Assembly: GCA_951394405.1 (NCBI GenBank)
Contig: OX596339.1
Location: 186,001-250,000, forward strand
DNA: 64,000 bases
Direction of reading: 5' to 3'
DNA from: Coprinellus micaceus
Taxonomy: Eukaryota; Basidiomycota; Agaricomycetes; Agaricales; Psathyrellaceae
The notes under the pieces: generated by a model
What the model saw: only the letters and a program-made list of their open reading frames with translations
Told to the model about the DNA's origin: nothing
The model's database searches: none
Position numbers and translations under genes: made by a program
Shown here: piece by piece, positions 3,273-14,392 of the stretch
How positions within the stretch are numbered: the stretch's first letter is position 1
Layout of the letters: every line of letters begins with the position of its first letter

Positions 3273-3426
3273 AGCTGCCAATGAGCGCTTGGCTTGACGG
3301 ATTCCTGCAGGCCTTTTCTTCGTCTGTTCCTGTTCATCCTCACATCTGGGACCACCCTAATACTGAATCCGCACGTCGAGCCGCCCAAATTCCCTGCCTC
3401 ACCATTCTCAGATGTGGTTGGTATCT

Positions 3427-3455
3427 TATGGTGTACCGGAGTGTCACGCTACGTT
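3427..3455 (+). repeat. Left terminal inverted repeat of the 10.6-kb element
   Basis: 29 bp identical to the reverse complement of 13983-14011, preceded by the target duplication GTATCT at 3421-3426. Confidence 0.9.
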
Positions 3456-3801
3456 TGCGCGATGGCCGAGGCTCGCATCAATGCCGGTGCCTCTGCCATG
3501 GGGTAGGACCTCTGATACCCTTCCCCATCACGCCTCGAAATGATATTGCCTGGTTACATTTCGATACGCCTGCCAGGGTTCCAGTGACTCGGAGGGGCGG
3601 GAGGCAGAGCGCCTGAGTTAGGCGCCCATGACCTCTGACGTGGTTCATTGTCACTTCAGTGCAATTGAATGAGAGTGCAAATGCGGTAGGAAGTGTTGTG
3701 TTGATTGCCAGTGCCACCCTTCGTAGTAAGATACAGGCAATTACTCTGTACATGAAGAAAGGAAAGGTTGGGGTACGAGGCCCGCCATTAAGATGTGTGC
3801 C

Positions 3802-5528
3802 CTAGGTATCTCCCTGGCCGCCTCCTTCGGAAACCGGCCGACCTGGGGCCCTCTCGAGGAGCTCCTCCACCGTAGGCCACATCCCTATACCCATCTCCCA
3901 GCGAGTCTCTTTATCCTTCAAAATTTTGTTGTATAGGGCCTTGCTCTTCTTCTTGAGCTGAGCTTCTGTACGGAAGCCATTGTCCACATATCTGAACAGT
4001 GCGCCGGCGGTGTACTGAGTAAAAGACACTCGTTTTTCCCCTTCCCGAACAGGAGTGTTGCCGTGGGTAATCGTTGCTGAAGGGAGGAGTATCAGGCACC
4101 CAGGAGGAAACTGGATGATCAGCTTCGGCTCCTTCAAGACCAGGTGCCCGCCTTTGGTGAAGTCGTACTTTCCCAGTGCATGGATCGCACATGGCCCGAA
4201 TGCGAGGTTCCTGCCATCACGATGGAAGTAGGTAGCGACTTCGGGACCAAGGTTGACTGCTGCTGCGGAGAAAATTGACAAGCTCCAATTTGCGACGAGT
4301 TCTTGGTGCTTCTGGCGCACGGAAATTGTGTGCTTGTGGTAATAATCGTACAGCTCGGGGAAATAGAATTTGAAAGACCCTTGAAGGCACGGTTTAAATG
4401 AGGCTCGGAGATCTGGAATATAAAGTAAAGCTTAGCACTTACCGCTCTGGTGGAGGGCCAGCCGTTTGAGCGCACTGCTTGCTCTCAGTTGGTCGACTAC
4501 ATCTTGATGCTTGTTGTTGCGCAAATTGTAGGGCTTCGGCGGGCCATGGCCTGCCCCAATACCGAAGTTAAGCGCCATGAAGTTTGGGCCTCGCAGGTTT
4601 TCCTCGATCTCCTCTTGCGTAAATCCGCCGCTCACGCCAAGTTCCAGAAGTAATTCCGCTGCGGCGTTGCAAGCCTCGTTGTAGGTCGCGCTCTCTGGCT
4701 TTCCGACGCCGACTACAAAAATCCGATCATCCTCAGCCTCTGTTATAACAAGAGGCTTCCTGGAATAAAAACGTACGCCAAGGCCGGGTCAGCATGTTAC
4801 ATATTTTTCGCTGGATGACGCACTACTCACGTTCCATCCCACTCGATGAGCTCGTACCCGTCGGCAATCAGGTCGTCGAATTTTAAGACTTCATCCCCCA
4901 TAGCGTCTTTGAACGTCCCGTCATATCCACTTGAGTTCGCCGGCAGCTCGTCCGTATCGATTTCCACAGAAATAGTGTCAGCTAAGCCTACAAATTTGGT
5001 AACATCGTCGGGGCGAGGGTTGTTCGTGTTGTTTACAAAGTCCTGGCGCCGTTTCTCCTCGCGTTTGAGCCTCTTCCGTTCCTTCTTGTGCTCCTTGCGC
5101 GTTTTCTTCTGGATAAGGTCGGATGGCTGCGGGACTTTCAAGCCGTGCGTATGGTCCCCTTCCGAGCGCCCATGAAACGAAGGCTCAGGCTGTGGCGCCA
5201 GTTCTGGGCGCCTAAACTGGCTGCCAGCCCCAGGCTGACCATGGCCGTCGGGGCATGCGAGGAGATCTTCCTCTGAGTCCCCAGCAGAGCCTTCGCGTTT
5301 TCGTTTGACGCCGTGCGTTTCGTTGGTGTAGTCGAAGTCGCCGAAGCGTTCATCAGCGACGGCAGCCTGCATTGCAGCGGCCAGCGAGAATTCAGGAGCG
5401 CATTTGAGAACCGAATAGGCCATGCCTGGGTGCGTCTTGAGCTGCAAATTATTTTTAATGCCCAGTCATCGGATATTGGGATGTGCTACAGCGCCTACCT
5501 CAGTGTGAGTACAGCGCTTGGTGGCCAT
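3802..5528 (-). CDS. TET/JBP-family 2-oxoglutarate/Fe(II) dioxygenase
   Basis: Four exons (5528-5499, 5441-4831, 4759-4443, 4412-3802) join to 522 residues. The first ~200 residues are charged and probably disordered, with a lysine/arginine-rich stretch (KKERKRLKREEKRR) that could act as a nuclear signal. The C-terminal half matches the basidiomycete TET/JBP dioxygenase domain: GPNF..LNFG near the middle, FSAAAVNLGP, the Fe-binding HxD (His383, Asp385), NLAFGPCAI, KGGHLVL, FPPGCLILLPSA, the distal Fe ligand His436 (THGN) and the 2-oxoglutarate-binding Arg447 (EKRVSFTQY). All expected catalytic residues are present. Family members oxidise 5-methylpyrimidines in DNA. The last intron is only 30 nt (4413-4442) but contains an in-frame stop, so it must be spliced out. 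The gene lies inside the 10.6-kb element. Confidence 0.9.
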
Positions 5529-6457
5529 ATGCGCAGATTGCTTTGACTCAGCTGAATGTAAGGAGGGGAAGGCGGAGAAAGGTCAACTTCAAAGAGCCAT
5601 ACACAGCCTGCGGTATATCCAAATTTCCGAGGGCTGTGTAGTGGTTCTTATTCCCAATTTGAATCAAATGTTTGTAAATGAGGGACTTAGGCGCCTGGAA
5701 TATCTCCTTCCTTATGCGGGGATCAAAGCACACGTTGCATCAGATCACCATAACAGGATAGATGTGGATTTTGCTGGAGGCCGTTGCCCCTTGCTTACCA
5801 CCACCACGGCACTCGACCCACTCGATGCGCGACTCGACGCTTCGTCTGCACCTCAGCTCGTGCCCCAAGCCCGGGGCGCCGTGCGTGTAGGCGGAGCTTA
5901 GTGTGCCCGCTCGATTTGCGCGTCCTGCACCTCGTCGCGTCCAAGTCGCGTCTTCTCTGGCCTCTGGGAGCAGGAGGCTGCGCCAACGCAAACCACACCG
6001 CCCTAATCTCGCCTGCAGATGGTCCCGGCGCCTTGCGCTCGTTTGCTCTGCTGCCCACGCCGCCGCTCACTGCCGCTCAATGCAGGCCAAGCCAAAGCTG
6101 GCTGCTGCACTGCCAAAAGCAGGCCCTCAGTGGCCAGCACGCTTGGGGCCAGGGTAAAGGAGTCTGGGGACAGAGAAAGGGGCGTTGGAGGGAAAAGAGG
6201 GCTGATCAACACCAGGAAGTTGAGCAGACAGGGCCAGGGGTGCGGTTGGGCCTGTGCCAGGTTTGGATATGGCGCCGTCGCTTTTGCTTCAGTGCTGCCG
6301 GCTATGTGATGGTGCGCTCTCAGCCCTCGTTTGCTTTTACTTCTCAGCCTCTCCCCTCCTGGCTCCTTGCTATCTTTCTCCCGGGCCTCGCTGTAGGCAG
6401 CTCCCTGCATAACGTGTATATAGATATCAGTGGAAATAATAATAATAATGATTTTTA
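5529..6457. other. Spacer between the dioxygenase and integrase genes
   Basis: About 930 bp upstream of the dioxygenase and downstream of the integrase stop. It must hold the dioxygenase promoter. A short (AAT)n run lies at about 6434-6450. The open frames here look like noise. Confidence 0.4.
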
Positions 6458-8264
6458 CTACCCAAGATACAACGGCTGGCCCCACTCTGCCCCTTCCTCC
6501 ATCTCATCTTCAGAAAGGTCAACGTACACGACATCCTCATCAATGTCATCGTAGTGGTCCTCCGGAATGGTTCCCACTGCATATGCATCTCCCGCCTCCT
6601 CCTCCTTATCTTCCTCCTGGCTCACCTTTGCCACGCTGATCCAGGACACATTTACGTCAGGGGGAATGAGCCCTCTGTCTCGCCGATCGGTCACCTCCTG
6701 CAACAGTGCGCTGTACACGTCCCAGCATGAGTAGCGAGTCACTGCAGGCCGGCCGATGGCTATGTATGCCTCAGCAGCTACGTCGTTGAAGCTCGGTGGC
6801 ACAAGTTTGAGCACAGGGTGATCCTGTGGTATAAACATGGTCCTGGCATCCCTTAATGCTTCCTCGGGAACATCGATCTATGTCTCTCACCTCAGCGCCA
6901 TGGAGTAGCCAAGGCGGGCTGAGTACTCACCGAATAGTCCCTTGCGAGGAAGCGCTCTGGGTGGGTAAAGATGTCGAGAGGTCGTCCGTGAGGGGTGAGC
7001 TTGAACTTGTTCTTGCGCTTGAGCTTGTTATTGATGCGGATGCGATAGCTGTCAAGTTCTTGCTGCATCCACGGGATAAACACCCAGCGGAAAACAAGGC
7101 TAGGGAAAGATGAGCGGCAGGAAACCCCGGAAAAGGTAGCGGGCTCACATGTGTAGGTAGTTGAGCATGTCGTATATGTCCTTACCCGCTTCAAGAATCG
7201 TCTCAAAGCCTGGAGAAAATCGACGTCGCAGATTGCTCCATTCGATTTCGGGCTTGATGTTGCTGTGCTTTCGCTTCCACTTGTGCGATATGCACCCAAC
7301 AGGGAGCTGGGGGTCGAGCCAATGGCGTAGCCAGGTGGTGGAATTAGCGACACCATTATTCTCTGTTCCTGGGTCGCTTTGGGTCATGAGAGGCATCTCT
7401 GCAAATGGTAAGAGCTACGAAAGAGCAAACATAGAGGGTGACGTACTTCCCAAAGCCTGAACTGTGTCAAGATAGTACTTGCAAATAAGAACAGGGTTCG
7501 AGTTATTCCACCACACTCGAAGCCAGAGAATCATGCCTGAGAACGGCTCAACTCCAATGTGAAGGCAAAGTCCATGCTTGTACTTCCACTTATCATGCTG
7601 ATCTAACGCCCAGAAATGGCCGACCCCGCCTGAGATAAAGTTCTTTTTCTTGAAGACCACGCCCTTCCTCTGCTCCAGAAGCTCAGGCTCATAGAGGTGG
7701 AAATATTCATACACGGTGCCCCTACCGTTGAGCGTGATCAACAACATAGTCGTGACATAATTGTGGCGGTTACTCACCTTCGCACTTTCTTCTTCTCTTC
7801 CGTCAAGTACAAATTCACCATTTCACGCGCACCTGCCCATGGATAGATCTCTCTGAGTATCTCCATGTTATCTTTAATGTCTTCAACACGAAGACCCTCT
7901 TTCCGAGCTCCCAAGCACCCAATCGTCTCCTTATACTCTCGGAACTTCGTCTTGCTGTCAGCAGGCAGGGGGAGCAAGACGATTTTGAGGGATGTCGTCA
8001 GCATGCAGAAGCACCATGGAGCGGCAAGTGTATGCGTACCCAATTCCGTACTGAGCTGTGTCGAAGTATGTGCCGTCGCACAGCTCGTTGAGTATCTGAT
8101 TGTCTGTTTTACCTTGATAAAACAAGCGGGCGATTCCAAGCTCGAGCTCTGCATCGAGTGGTGCTACGACATGCATGGTGAGCAACTCAGTTGGATCTCG
8201 AACCCTGGAGGGCCTTACGATTTGGTAGGTACTGGTTCCTTCCTTGGCCTTTCCTTGCGGGCAT
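6458..8264 (-). CDS. Integrase-core (DDE) protein, probable transposase
   Basis: Seven exons (8264-8219, 8163-8040, 7954-7778, 7721-7447, 7398-7149, 7099-6931, 6877-6458) join to 486 residues. The N-terminus has a helix-turn-helix-like segment (YQGKTDNQIL ... YGIGKTKF). The core carries retroviral-integrase-type acidic residues: Asp156 in WALDQHDKW, Asp216 in TQSDPGTEN and Glu258 in KPEIEW. After this come FRWVFIPWMQQELD, NNKLKRKNKF and DHPVLKLVPPSF, all typical of the basidiomycete integrase-core family (PF24764-like). The C-terminal ~50 residues are very acidic. Six introns of 48-85 nt fit the frame exactly. The protein lies mid-element on the same strand as the dioxygenase. The 6-bp target duplication fits an integrase-type enzyme, as in Polintons. 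No key residue is missing. Confidence 0.88.
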
Positions 8265-8663
8265 TGCGAATTGCGACGCTTGACTCGGCTTGAGGGCAGT
8301 GGTCAACTCAAGAGCTAAGGCGGTGGGCAGAGGGGGAAACCCGAAAGACCCAGAGGACCTGAGGGAGGGAGGGAAGGCTGGCATTACAAAGCCTTATCGC
8401 CTTTGCCTTTTGGGCACCTGATATCCTCCGGTGCATGGCTCGCTGACCTGGAGCCCCTGAGCTATCCACGCATGCAGTCCCGATTATTCATGGCAACCGA
8501 CGGAGTCAGATAACTCGCCGGTACTGAGCGTCGCCGTCGAACAGGCTACGCCATCTTTTTCTGTCCCTCTATTCTTTGTCCGCTTCTCCCCCCATTTCAC
8601 TTCCTTTTTTATTCTACCAAAATTTCTCTGCTCTAAAGTCGCTCTTTCATCCAACTTTCATCG
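8265..8663. promoter_or_regulatory. Divergent promoter, integrase (-) / alpha-kinase (+)
   Basis: 399 bp separate the two start codons. The kinase side is pyrimidine-rich just upstream of its ATG, as is common in fungal leaders. The shared spacer suggests co-regulation (inference). Confidence 0.5.
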
Positions 8664-11600
8664 ATGGAGGGCGAGGAGGTTTTTGCGAGCATTACAGCCC
8701 CTGACCCACAAGGCACCCTGTGCGATTTCTTTGCCACACGAGGCTGCAAGAATATTGTTCCACCTGGCGCGAAGACAAGGGTTACCGACAAGAGAACGCA
8801 AGTGAGCTATCGCTTGTGTGGTGACTGCTACAGGCATCAGACTGGCAAGCTGTCTTCAGTCCGCGGTGCGTTCACGGTTTGGGCGATGCAGTTGAGGTCG
8901 TTGCCGATTTGAAAATTTGTGCTCCAGTTTCGGTCTCTCATGCCGACAATCCGGAGAATGCTGCTGCTTCCGCCCAAGTAGCGCACCCTGCTGGCCTTTC
9001 TGCCCGTGGCCGACAGGTAGATACTTTGGCCCTTCGACACCAAGTCATCTCTGCTCAGCGCCCTGGTCCGTCATGACAGCTTCGCCAATCCCTCTATTTT
9101 AAAGTGCTGACTGCAGAACTCAGACTATGGACGCCCCATTCCTAGAGTCGTCGATTTCCCCGCAACTGGTCACCTTGCTCCTCCCCACAACTTAGCAGGG
9201 CCCGCCGTTGTAACTCCAGCAATGAGGACAGCGTCCGACGCCCCTGTTCATCCTTCAGGCCCATACAATGCAAACCACGTGCATTTGAAGGATGACGTCG
9301 CACGGTGGGCCTCAGGGAAGCCAGGCTCAGGCTCTTCAACGCCCAACACAGGCTATCGAGCCTCCGTCCTCGTCAGTCACTATGCTGCACTGCCCAGAGT
9401 GAAGCATAACCAGCGCGAAACTGACATTGCCGTACGCTGACTTGATCCTGCTGGTGGGCGTCGAATTTTGCTTACTTACGAATTTCTAGAACGTCTACAC
9501 TACAATTAAAGTTCACCCAGAGGCGAGTGGGGAAGAGATCGCACGCAGCGCCAAAAATGCCATCATTGAGGAGTGGAAGCGCCGCGGCTGCTCCTTCTCA
9601 TGGAAGATGACTGACGCAGATGTTCGGGATCCCAGAAACCACGCCAACGTCGAGCATGAGAAGGCAGGTGGTTATTTCAAGGCACAGCTCCTCATCATAC
9701 CAACTGGCAAGAGTGCGAAGGGGAAGCGCGCTGAATACAAGGATCCAGCAAAGCAACTATCCATCCGTGTTGTCTCGAAAGCAGAAGAGCATGAAAGGTA
9801 CCAAGCCTACATGGAGAATCTTGGAACGGTAATCTCCCTCTTATCAAATATCTCCTTTTACGAGTCTTGTAATGCTAATGATGGGGTTAGGAAAGCGACG
9901 GGGAAAGCATGACAGCCATTCAACCGCACCCCACAAAGCCAGTGCTCTCCAAGTCTCAGCAGAAGAGGCCAGCACCCACCAATCCTATGTCTTCCTCTGC
10001 CCGGCCTGGCGCGTCTGCCTTGGCTGGACCTTCCAAGCGGCCAAGAACTCAGGTAAGCTGCTCGCCCGCTTTCAATGCAAATCCTTCTGACAGACGCTGA
10101 CCATACTTACCCCAGAGCAAGCCTTTCATCATGCCGACATTTACGAACTTGGAGGCATCGGCATCATTGCAGATTACGAAGCGCCCCCCAACCCCCACAC
10201 TCTCAGGTAGTGACGGCGACTTGCCAACTATAGGCGAGATAATAAAGGCCCCTGTGAGTGCCTGCGTACTAGTATGCTGCTCACGGGCACTGGCGCTGAT
10301 GCAGGGTAAACACCTAGACAACCGATCCTAAGAAGATGCCGCCTTCCAATGCCACAGGATCAAACCCGAGCAAGGCTCCTTCGCTCAATCCAACTAAGTC
10401 AGTAAATCCTGGGCCTATCCCTGCAGGGCCGCATCCACGAATGGCCATTTCTGGGCTTGTTTCCGATCCGACAGCCATACGCTCAGCGCCACAACCTTTC
10501 CCAGGATCCTCTCTTGCCGCCAGAACCTCCCCATCTGTTCTAGATGCCACAGCGTTTAAACGGGCGCTAGAGGCGGGCGGCGCGGGGACAATGACAAGCC
10601 GGAAGCTCATTGGCTGTAAGTACCCCTTTTTCATATCACAGATATGTGCCTGTGCGGCGGCGGCCTCAGCTAACACTGTCAATTTTTAGTCCAGGATGTC
10701 GTTGAGCAAGCAACCATCCACACAATATCACGTGTTAGCCTCGATGCACTCATTGACGATGCAGGCGGCCCCACGAGCCTGATAGACCTGTTTCACCAGG
10801 CGCGGGAGACACGGCCGCTCGAGACTGCTGATATTTGTGTTTCGCTCAGGCAATTTCGCAGAGGCTCGTTCAAGACGTCTCATGAAACGAAGCACCTCGC
10901 TATGCGTGGCCCAGGTCCATGGCCGCCTGGCCATATCTCCCAGTTCAAAGTTGTTGCCAAGCGGATGTACCGGAGGACGAAAGAAGGTGCATTGGAGCGC
11001 CTCCCTGTGGAGAGGGAGCTGGCGGGCCTTTTGACGGAGGGAAACTTGCTCATGTGGTCCGACTCAATGCATACTGAGTGTGATGCAAGGGTAGAGGCCA
11101 AGGTACGGGAGTCTGGCTCTCCTCCATTTCCCCTCCCTAAACTCCGCTTCGTGACTGCCGCCATTGCGACGGTAGTGGGCAAGGCGGAAAGGGAAAGGGG
11201 TATCTTTGTTCCTGCTATGACTGGTTCATACCTCTTGGAGGAGCGCATTGAGGGAAGGTTTGTCAAGTACATCAACAACTGCGACTGCCAACCTGCCGAC
11301 AACCTCTCCCCCAACGATGGCGTCTACTATGAGAACGCACTTTACTTGTGCTTCTCACAGCATCTCCAGTACAACATGACGGAAGGCCTGGCCTATGTTT
11401 CCGACTATCAAGGTGAGTGAATGCTACACTATTCAAGGGCCTGTGCTAAAAATGATGCTTCACTAAAATCCTCTTAGGCAACGACAAGGTCCTCACTGAT
11501 ACACAGATCATTACGAACCCAAAGTGAGTGGTCCTTGCCAATTCTCGCGTAATAAACCTGTGGGTGCTTACCTTGATACACCAGGCGCTTCAAGACCAGG

Positions 11601-11708
11601 CTCTTCGGTGACGGGAATATAACATCGGCATTTGCGTCGTTTCCTCTGAAGCACGAGTGCAACAAGTTCTGCCAGTGGTATGGCCTCGCTCCCTTTTCAA
11701 AGACGTAG
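8664..11708 (+). CDS. Alpha-kinase-domain protein
   Basis: Ten exons (8664-8865, 8928-9016, 9117-9431, 9490-9828, 9891-10052, 10116-10253, 10318-10615, 10690-11412, 11478-11523, 11585-11708) join to 811 residues. The N-terminus has four cysteines in zinc-ribbon-like spacing (Cys20, 28, 52, 55). A long Ser/Pro-rich linker follows (to ~residue 510). The C-terminal ~290 residues resemble the MHCK/EF2K alpha-kinase domain: FKVVAKRMY with Lys605 as candidate ATP contact, FVPAMTGSYLLEERIEG, NDGVYYENALYLCFSQHLQY, the GDGN loop (779-782) and the zinc-binding HECNKFC (794-800). Alpha-kinases phosphorylate Ser/Thr in helical or coiled substrates. The usual fourth zinc ligand is hard to place. The gene sits inside the mobile element, divergent from the integrase gene, and appears intact. 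Confidence 0.85.
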
Positions 11709-13982
11709 CCTACCCCCGCTTGATTTTACCCGCTTCATCCCATCTATTTTTCTCTCTCGTTCTTTGGAGCGCAACGCCCCTGCCTGTCTTTACTGCTGTT
11801 GATACCCTCCCCCTCTCCTTGTCCCTCACCCTCGTCTGTCATTACCCCCCACCTTTCGCCTAACTCCAGCCTGTCCTTACCCGTACTGTTGCTTCCTCGT
11901 AAATATATATATCTTCAGATTAGCGCAGTACCCTCAGCCAGCTCTCAGCACTCGATTAGGTCTTCAAACGTATCTGCTGATCATCCAATTATGTGTGGAT
12001 CCCGGCACGTAGAGGACCCCTCCACGGCTGTACTGGCTCTCGTGCACCATCCAAGGATCTCAAGCAGATTGCGGATTGGGCTCTGGTCTGATTTTATGGG
12101 GTTAGCAGGACACCAAGGGCGCGCAGTGCAGGTGTCCGTTTGGCCGAATATTCAAAACCCATCTTCTAATTATTCGAATACGCCCGAGCCCCAGCGTGCG
12201 GTGGATCCTTTCGTGGTTGCGCCGGCTTCCACCCAGCACCCGATGATCTCAGGCAAATTGTGGGTGGTCCAATTTTCTGGGGGTAGCGAGACGCCGATGG
12301 CCCAGGCGCACGCTCAGGCAGGCGACTGTGTGTCCACACCGCCAAAACTCAGTATCTAATTTCATGCACCACCAGAAAACAGCGCATTGACGGCACGTAG
12401 GACCTGCAGGAACTCCTCACAGTCTTACTCGCTCCTGCACGTCGCCCAATTGCCTTGGGCAACTTGTATTGAGCGTCGTCCACTGGCGGGGGCAACTGTC
12501 ACGGCTGCATGAGGTCCTCAGATATGTAGTGAGCACCAAATGGGCTTTCAATGGTGTGCTCACAACTGAGAGGCCTCAATATCACGAAATTGATCTTCGT
12601 GTTTGGGGCCTTCGTTGTTCAACATTGCTATTGACGAGCCAGGGCAAATTTGCGAGCCTACGACCTTGTGAATCGTCGTGCTCGCAAACGCCCCTTAGAG
12701 ACTCAGGGATTACGGCTTGGCCAGCATACAAGGCCTTCACAAGGCCCCGACATTGACCGTCGTGCTTGCGGCTTGCGAGAAACTAGGGAACTGATTGACC
12801 ACAGACTCGGACGCATTGGCCTTTGAGACGGTGCCATCTGGGACTTACCAATTTTATGCTGTATTTTGCAAATTATATCACAACCCCAGCTCTTCGCAAA
12901 GCGATGGCTCGAAAACCCAGCTCTCCGCCGGCACAGCAGGCGAATTGCGTACAGGTTGGGTCGCTCAACTTGCAACTTCAGCTTTCCGCCGGCACAGCGA
13001 GCCTGCGCATCGCGTGCACTGTCACGGATGCTGGAAAGTATTCCACAACGCGCCTACGAGCGCCCTCTGTATCAGTCCCTCGCTGGGGCAAGAAACATTG
13101 GACGCCCGTGCCATAATGCGGCGAGAGGCGGGTTGGACGGGGCAGGTGTATGTCATGGACTGGATGAAAGAAGCTCAGGTAAGAAGACCCAATCGCATTC
13201 ACTCTTCGAACTCAGTTCAAAACACTAAACTCCTCCTTTCCCCAATGGTCTACATGGGTTCCATAATACCCTCCACTTCATGAAACACACGAGGCCCACG
13301 CCTAGTGCCATTTGGGGACAAGCCTCTATTTCGGGAGGGCTAATGAGTTTAGCCGCCGATCGAGGTGTGTAGATGGAAGGCCTTGACGTAGAGAATCGGA
13401 TTTGTTTGTGCCAGGAACTCGAACCCCATTTCTATCATAGCACTGCCGAGATACCTCGAACGACCCAGGCTTTGTCCAAAGCCATAAATGTGGTCGCTGT
13501 TGAGTTGGCGCCCTACTAAGCGCCCGTTGCCATATAGGAGTGGCATCCAGGTAAGAACCCCGCAGACGGGGTTTCCGAATAGAGTCGTTCGGCGTTCAGC
13601 GATGCATAACATGTGTGCACTGGCGAGCTAAGTGGAGGAAAGAGAGAGGTTGAGAAGTACCATGATATTTAAGCGCCCATCACTGGACCTCGTTCGCTTC
13701 CTTGTACCTACCCAGCTGCTGGGGCCGCTCCTCAGCCCTACCTACATTAACCGGCTCCCCAATAGCCCGTTTTGGAAGGCTCGGATCGAAAACATATGCC
13801 CTGCCGTCTCAGACCCCCCACATCTTCTGCGCCCCTCCCATCCAACCGTGCGGGCCATCCAGGGGCTGAGAGAAGCAAAAAGCGCGTTCATAATTGAAGA
13901 ATTGAAATACGGATGGTGCCTAGTATGTTGCGGTTCTGGGGTCCTCACTCCCAACGCCTGGCCGAGCCTGCCGATGGTGCCG
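11709..13982. other. Right arm of the element, no clear gene
   Basis: 2.3 kb between the kinase stop and the right TIR. Several open frames of 60-160 codons exist, but none shows a domain or closes with plausible introns, apart from the weak candidate at 13349-13612. A GCCGGCACAGC motif occurs twice near 12930-12990. Confidence 0.4.
13349..13612 (-). CDS. Hypothetical small open frame in the element
   Basis: An open frame of 87 codons with protein-like composition (HIYGFGQSLGRSRYLGSAMI ..). An upstream in-frame stretch could encode a hydrophobic leader, but a stop codon separates the two, so an intron or decay would have to be assumed. I do not recognise the family and it may not be a gene. 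Confidence 0.25.
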   Translation of the reverse strand: MLCIAERRTTLFGNPVCGVLTWMPLLYGNGRLVGRQLNSDHIYGFGQSLGRSRYLGSAMIEMGFEFLAQTNPILYVKAFHLHTSIGG

Positions 13983-14011
13983 AACGTAGCGTGACACTCC
14001 GGTACACCATA
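13983..14011 (-). repeat. Right terminal inverted repeat of the 10.6-kb element
   Basis: 29 bp, the exact reverse complement of 3427-3455. The target duplication GTATCT follows at 14012-14017. Confidence 0.9.
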
Positions 14012-14392
14012 GTATCTTGATGGTCTGGACGTGTGTCGACGTGCATCTCAGCCTTATCGACGGTTTGACGCTCCCGGAGAATCTCAGCACCGACCAGGTT
14101 GCCATCAGCGCTCATCTCCACGTGCCGGAGTCCTCGGGTTTCCCCTTTCTATCAGGAGAGAGAGATGACAGCGAGCATAGGGGACTACAAAGATCTAAAG
14201 GGACATTGAAGATTTGACGGCCCCCCATGCATAGTTGATTTCCTTGACACCGGAGATCCACATCAACGGACGCATTCTAGTTATATCGCTCGGGGAAGCT
14301 AGAGTCCAGAAGCCGTGAACGTATAAAGGAGGCACTATTGAATGGTATAATGTGTGCCTCGTACTTGGGCCATCTTGATCTCCCGGCGGTCG

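Follow-up and report, generated by a model that had tools for sequence, protein, structure and literature searches.

A complete transposon of 10,585 bp was found in Coprinellus micaceus, in a 64,000-nucleotide stretch of contig OX596339.1 that corresponds to C6:186001-250000 of the genome assembly (50.3 Mb, 17 contigs, labeled C1, C6, C7 and so on). The whole stretch is called the window here, and positions without a contig label refer to it. The element lies at 3427-14011, between two copies of a short duplication, and carries genes for a TET/JBP dioxygenase, a DDE transposase with an integrase core and an alpha-kinase. Taken as a whole, it is very probably a complete IS3EU-type transposon, in which the transposase and the alpha-kinase form the core and the TET gene was captured on the transposase side, outside this pair. 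IS3EU elements encoding a transposase, a TET/JBP protein and an alpha-kinase (TET+ IS3EU) were published in December 2025 from seven rust species (Pucciniales) and the truffle Tuber indicum (Kojima 2025, PMC12730594). The present element is of this known kind and not a new class; what is new is the agaric host, the position of the TET gene and a TET without the marks of the AG and PE types.

The ends of the element were sharply defined. The left terminal inverted repeat (TIR; 29 bp, + strand, beginning with TATGG) occupies 3427-3455 and the right one (29 bp, - strand, ending with CCATA) 13983-14011, the two arms being 100% complementary over 29 nt. They are enclosed by a perfect 6-bp target-site duplication (TSD), GTATCT, at 3421-3426 and 14012-14017. 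Both features had been recognized, with exact coordinates, in an earlier sequence-only reading of this DNA. By hand calculation, chance alone would give about 7e-9 perfect inverted matches of 29 bp per 64 kb, with the duplication not counted. The whole window was scanned for TAYGG..CCRTA pairs that are separated by 1-20 kb, are flanked by a 6-bp repeat (up to 1 mismatch) and match at 12 or more of 20 TIR bases. Two pairs were obtained, namely the element itself (20/20, perfect repeat) and another at chance level (12/20, 1 mismatch). The element is real and complete, and the identical TIRs, the perfect TSD and the open reading frames suggest a recent insertion, which we regard as probable. The earlier reading had looked to the 29-bp TIR for other copies of the element; a search of this genome with up to 3 mismatches detected no further copy, and a reversed control pattern gave 0 matches. 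The single copy may reflect either a recent arrival or a copy number that is low by nature.

Between the TIRs lie three spliced gene models, all free of internal stop codons. Their introns were set manually from GT..AG borders and the reading frame, so that the splice models are predictions. The TET/JBP gene (3802-5423, - strand; 506 amino acids) has three exons at 5423-4831, 4759-4443 and 4412-3802, the transposase gene (6458-8176, - strand; 475 amino acids) has six, and the alpha-kinase gene (8664-11708, + strand; 782 amino acids, kinase domain C-terminal) has ten. The gene order is TET, transposase and kinase, with the kinase transcribed divergently from the transposase. The earlier claim of exactly three intact, intron-bearing genes held for the three multi-exon, open-frame models; as to "exactly", no gene was assigned in 11709-13982, where the frames were listed and not searched.

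The DDE protein is the likely mobility enzyme, as the earlier reading had proposed. It matched the Pfam integrase-core family PF24764 (rva_4) at 1.3e-7 (32 bits; cut-off 26) and had 267 homologues at E values of 0.001 or lower. The residues D145 (or D148), D205 and E247 were invariant in 25 aligned sequences, which were the window protein and 24 of the 267 homologues. No HHCC motif was found upstream of the DDE part in the N-terminus. The closest homologue among the 120 matches listed was a protein of 74% identity encoded on a metagenome contig of 1.5 kb. All named homologues among these matches are classed in Agaricomycotina. The nearest named homologues of both the transposase and the TET came from Coprinellus, Coprinopsis and Mycena, which fits an agaric host close to Coprinellus, mobile genes being weak evidence on this point. 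The statement that no KDZ transposase is present also stood: none of the 107 genome matches to PF18758 fell in the window.

These features were compared with the published description of IS3EU. Elements of this group have TA..TA termini and a TSD usually of 6 bp (PMC10045372), and the present element has TATGG at 3427, CCATA ending at 14011, a 6-bp duplication and an integrase-core DDE transposase without an upstream HHCC motif. TET+ IS3EU families from rusts have 6-bp TSDs, TAYGG..CCRTA ends and TIRs longer than 30 bp, and in all TET+ IS3EU families the TET gene lies between the transposase and the alpha-kinase, which are oppositely oriented (PMC12730594). The gene set, the TSD length, the TAYGG..CCRTA ends of the rust families and the opposite orientation of kinase and transposase are shared by the window element. 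It differs in its agaric host and in its TET gene, which is not between transposase and kinase and lacks the PE-type HxE. The perfectly matching stretch of its TIR measures 29 bp, next to TIRs of more than 30 bp described for the rusts. The carrier lineages of TET in Agaricomycotina were given as Kyakuja, Zisupton, EnSpm, Plavaka and Helitron2, without IS3EU, and the main text of PMC12730594 makes no mention of Coprinellus, Psathyrellaceae or Crypton. In the literature searched, IS3EU with an alpha-kinase appeared only in that paper, as did the combination of a TET dioxygenase, an alpha-kinase and a transposase; IS3EU together with Agaricomycetes came up in three papers, two of them on genomes. 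On the basis of termini, TSD, DDE type and gene set, set against the published description, the element is assigned with good confidence to IS3EU, which extends TET capture by this group to an agaric.

The same genome contained three bounded elements that separate the core from the cargo. The element at C7:2828343-2834187 (5845 bp) has TACGG..CCGTA ends, a perfect TSD (CCCCTG), a TIR perfect over 229 bp and then with scattered mismatches, an alpha-kinase on the - strand and a transposase on the + strand. The elements at C11:134160-139641 (L065; TSD CCAGCAG) and C1:658434-663961 (L070; TSD CCCCCCG) also encode a transposase and an alpha-kinase and belong to one family, with TARSGTTGGCG ends and TA..TA repeats matching at 23 of 25 bases. 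All three share TA..TA termini, the two genes and flanking duplications with the window element; they are about half its length (5.5-5.8 kb) and have other TIR sequences. None of them overlapped any of the 44 genome matches to the window TET family or the 31 matches to PF12851. A search with the C7 transposase gave four loci besides the window (its own, C11, C1:662712 and C1:4289303), and a kinase match adjoined the first three. Because three bounded elements hold the pair without a TET match, transposase and kinase are a recurrent core and the TET gene is an addition, that is, cargo. The sequence-only reading was thus right about the TET gene; the kinase, which it had also counted as cargo, adjoins the transposase in all three elements and is probably part of the core.

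Several observations weigh against this account of the element. It is single-copy in the genome, and joint movement of its three genes has no support from a second copy. The C7 and window transposases aligned only in the C-terminal part (1.6e-15, 36% identity over 126 columns), and the DDE part of the C7 protein matched no Pfam family, its D, D and E being read by eye. The fragment at C1:4289303, a weak transposase match, had no kinase match nearby. The C11 and C1 elements have 7-bp instead of 6-bp repeats, with transposase and kinase on the same strand. The genome search with PF24764 gave 15 matches, grouped by eye into seven further loci (C7:3578739, C8:2040421, C1:4288966, C2:2043994, C10:960472, C9:2923105 and C9:2806059), none near a kinase match and some matching PF24764 better than the window protein does. 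Neither the PF02816 nor the PF24764 genome search recovered the genes of the window itself, so that these counts are lower bounds from searches of limited sensitivity. An integrase fragment at C9:560708-561107 was considered as another element and rejected, as no TIR/TSD pair was found.

The kinase assignment was straightforward. The protein matched Pfam Alpha_kinase (PF02816) at 4.1e-14, and among solved chains it matched by sequence 1ia9, which we take to be TRPM7, at an E value of 8.4e-6 and eEF2 kinase at 1.2e-4. Homologues of the kinase region included at least two proteins, from Mycena and Favolaschia, among 7996 candidates.

The window TET fell below the Pfam Tet_JBP cut-off (E value 0.013; 15.2 bits against 34.9), and its assignment rests for this reason on homologues and fold. 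Among 36 aligned relatives, 19 matched Tet_JBP at E values of 0.1 or lower, the best at 5.3e-6, and structural comparison showed the TET/JBP fold. The predicted iron ligands are H367, D369 and H420 in an HxD...H arrangement, H420 being present in 36 of 36 aligned sequences and both H367 and D369 in 90% or more of them, and R431 is presumably the 2-oxoglutarate ligand. The fold and the HxD...H arrangement are shared with CcTET of Coprinopsis cinerea (7vpn, 7w5p, 8jkk), at 14-15% identity in the structural alignment. The diagnostic residues of the AG type were absent: at the equivalents of Gly331 and Asp337 of CcTET, the window TET has N and C in a gapless register, and a weak profile match (A1 on the window side; probability 12%) to three PF12851 TETs supports this motif register only. 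Those TETs of PF12851 that were examined, three of 30 loci, all retain the AG-diagnostic Gly and Asp, and the one tested matched CcTET at 1.1e-30. The family profile of the window TET did not find CcTET at E values up to 10. The PE-type HxE is also absent, positions 367-369 being HRD. By these residues, and with the AG and PE marks as the only ones compared, the predicted protein is neither AG-type nor PE-type, and it hints at a TET family that may fall outside the three types published so far. Capture of an AG-type TET from Kyakuja was considered and rejected, as both the Gly331/Asp337 equivalents and the similarity to CcTET are absent. Kyakuja (KDZ) elements with an AG-type TET are likewise TET/JBP-carrying mobile DNA of mushroom-forming fungi, and they differ in their transposase, 7-bp TSD, CA..TG ends, lack of TIRs and TET type (PMC12730594).

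The genome held two sets of TETs with no locus in common, the window family with 44 matches at 19 loci and PF12851 with 31 matches at 30 loci (matches were grouped into loci by eye, and distances to KDZ matches were counted from hand-entered positions). A KDZ match lay within 10 kb of 25 of the 30 PF12851 loci versus 4 of the 19 window-family loci; TETs linked to KDZ are said to have been described by Iyer et al. in 2014. A tree of 39 rows was built from the window TET, 16 of the 18 other loci (one was too short and one not fetched) and 22 of 98 homologues. In it the window TET grouped with the copy at C1:3678846 and two C. micaceus proteins (100/99). Of the three copies that have a KDZ match at a distance of 5 kb or less, L023 and L027 were in a different supported clade, alongside copies with KDZ-free neighborhoods, and the third (L028) joined the tree at an open fork; L038, 7.5 kb from a weak KDZ fragment, was in the sister group of the window TET clade. 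Because the KDZ-near copies scatter in this way, the tree does not name the donor of the TET.

The locus C1:3677860-3679415 (L001, L022, L059, L060) holds an apparently solo TET copy, the nearest relative of the window TET in the genome. A DNA similarity of 74% extends also to a stretch some 370-470 bp ahead of the start codon. The locus was rejected as a donor element, as only two 12-base inverted matches span it. No transposase was recognized among its frames by eye, no Pfam scan having been made.

As to how the element works, the transposase would bind the inverted ends and mobilize the element in a cut-and-paste manner, and joining to target DNA with a 6-bp stagger would create the GTATCT duplication, as expected from the family. 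The TET gene, presumably captured, lies beside the transposase and outside the transposase-kinase pair; its product is predicted to oxidize methylated bases of the element or its surroundings and may thereby weaken methylation-based silencing by the host. The presumed substrate can probably be made, because the genome has four matches to C5 DNA methyltransferases. The kinase is a partner of the transposase in this lineage, and a role of its phosphorylation in regulating the transposase, or the repair or chromatin of the host, is conjecture.

It is possible instead, and in our judgment rather unlikely, that the TET gene works for the host, or is carried along passively, and does not serve the element. 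Its family has other carriers and an apparently solo copy, the activity is a prediction, and the author of PMC12730594 leaves other base modifications open. Against this stand the open frame, the low pN/pS (nonsynonymous and synonymous differences per site) across copies and the parallel capture of TETs by many transposon lineages (PMC12730594). In exon 3, the window TET and the nearest genome copy differed with pN 0.17 and pS 0.74 over 188 codons, synonymous sites being near saturation, and comparison with 11 of the 18 other loci gave pN 0.17-0.34 and pS 0.68-0.85. The pattern is consistent with purifying selection, although synonymous sites are close to saturation. Elements with and without TET in one genome make it possible to ask, by comparison, whether a TET on a transposon lowers the methylation of the element that carries it.

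The earlier reading had favored a distinct and undescribed transposon class, here one apart from IS3EU in which an integrase-like element carries both TET and kinase as cargo. The lack of AG-type and PE-type diagnostic residues in the TET, the seven other PF24764 loci without a kinase match and the assignment to IS3EU from published descriptions in place of a transposase tree with Repbase IS3EU speak for it; the termini, TSD length, DDE type, kinase partner and transposase-kinase orientation nevertheless fit published IS3EU (PMC12730594, PMC10045372), TET+ IS3EU is itself published, and kinase and transposase recur jointly in bounded elements without a TET match, which leaves a new class very improbable. 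That the ends are moved by a transposase encoded elsewhere, with three host genes trapped between them in a non-autonomous or composite element, would suit the single copy and the one 2.3-kb interior stretch without assigned genes, but it is hardly credible given an open-frame transposase gene of the right family inside the element, a terminal repeat that has no further genome copy when up to 3 mismatches are allowed and a transposase-kinase pair that recurs in bounded elements.

Besides the IS3EU-type element of the window, another carrier of the same TET family was observed. An 11.2-kb unit present at C7:129197-140375 and C11:2436755-2447937 is 99.6% identical between the two sites and has different flanks (L066, L020, L067; L068, L019, L069), and the window-family TET copies at C7:132343 and C11:2439901 sit inside it. 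It encodes GCR1_C (6.4e-10) and NDC10_II (2.4e-7) domains, which are a signature of fungal Crypton tyrosine recombinases. The unit is a candidate TET-carrying Crypton, as judged from these predicted domains. Crypton is absent from the list of TET carriers in PMC12730594, and none of four papers found on Crypton, TET dioxygenases and fungi dealt with this subject, as judged by title and the start of the abstract. We tentatively propose that agarics hold a further TET/JBP type beside PU, AG and PE that is tied to no single transposon lineage, occurring here on the IS3EU element, on the two near-identical copies of the Crypton-like unit and at a few KDZ-associated loci, with the AG type staying with KDZ. 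If true, no TET would have been known on a tyrosine-recombinase carrier before this one, and agarics would offer one more case of a TET that switches transposon lineages. An open reading frame of the unit at C7:130633-131268, without a Pfam match, looks XPG-like to us.

Within the part of the window element that has no assigned gene, 12862-13367 shares 75% identity with C6:375981-376479, elsewhere on this contig. The match was considered as an element end and rejected, no TIR being seen at C6:375981.

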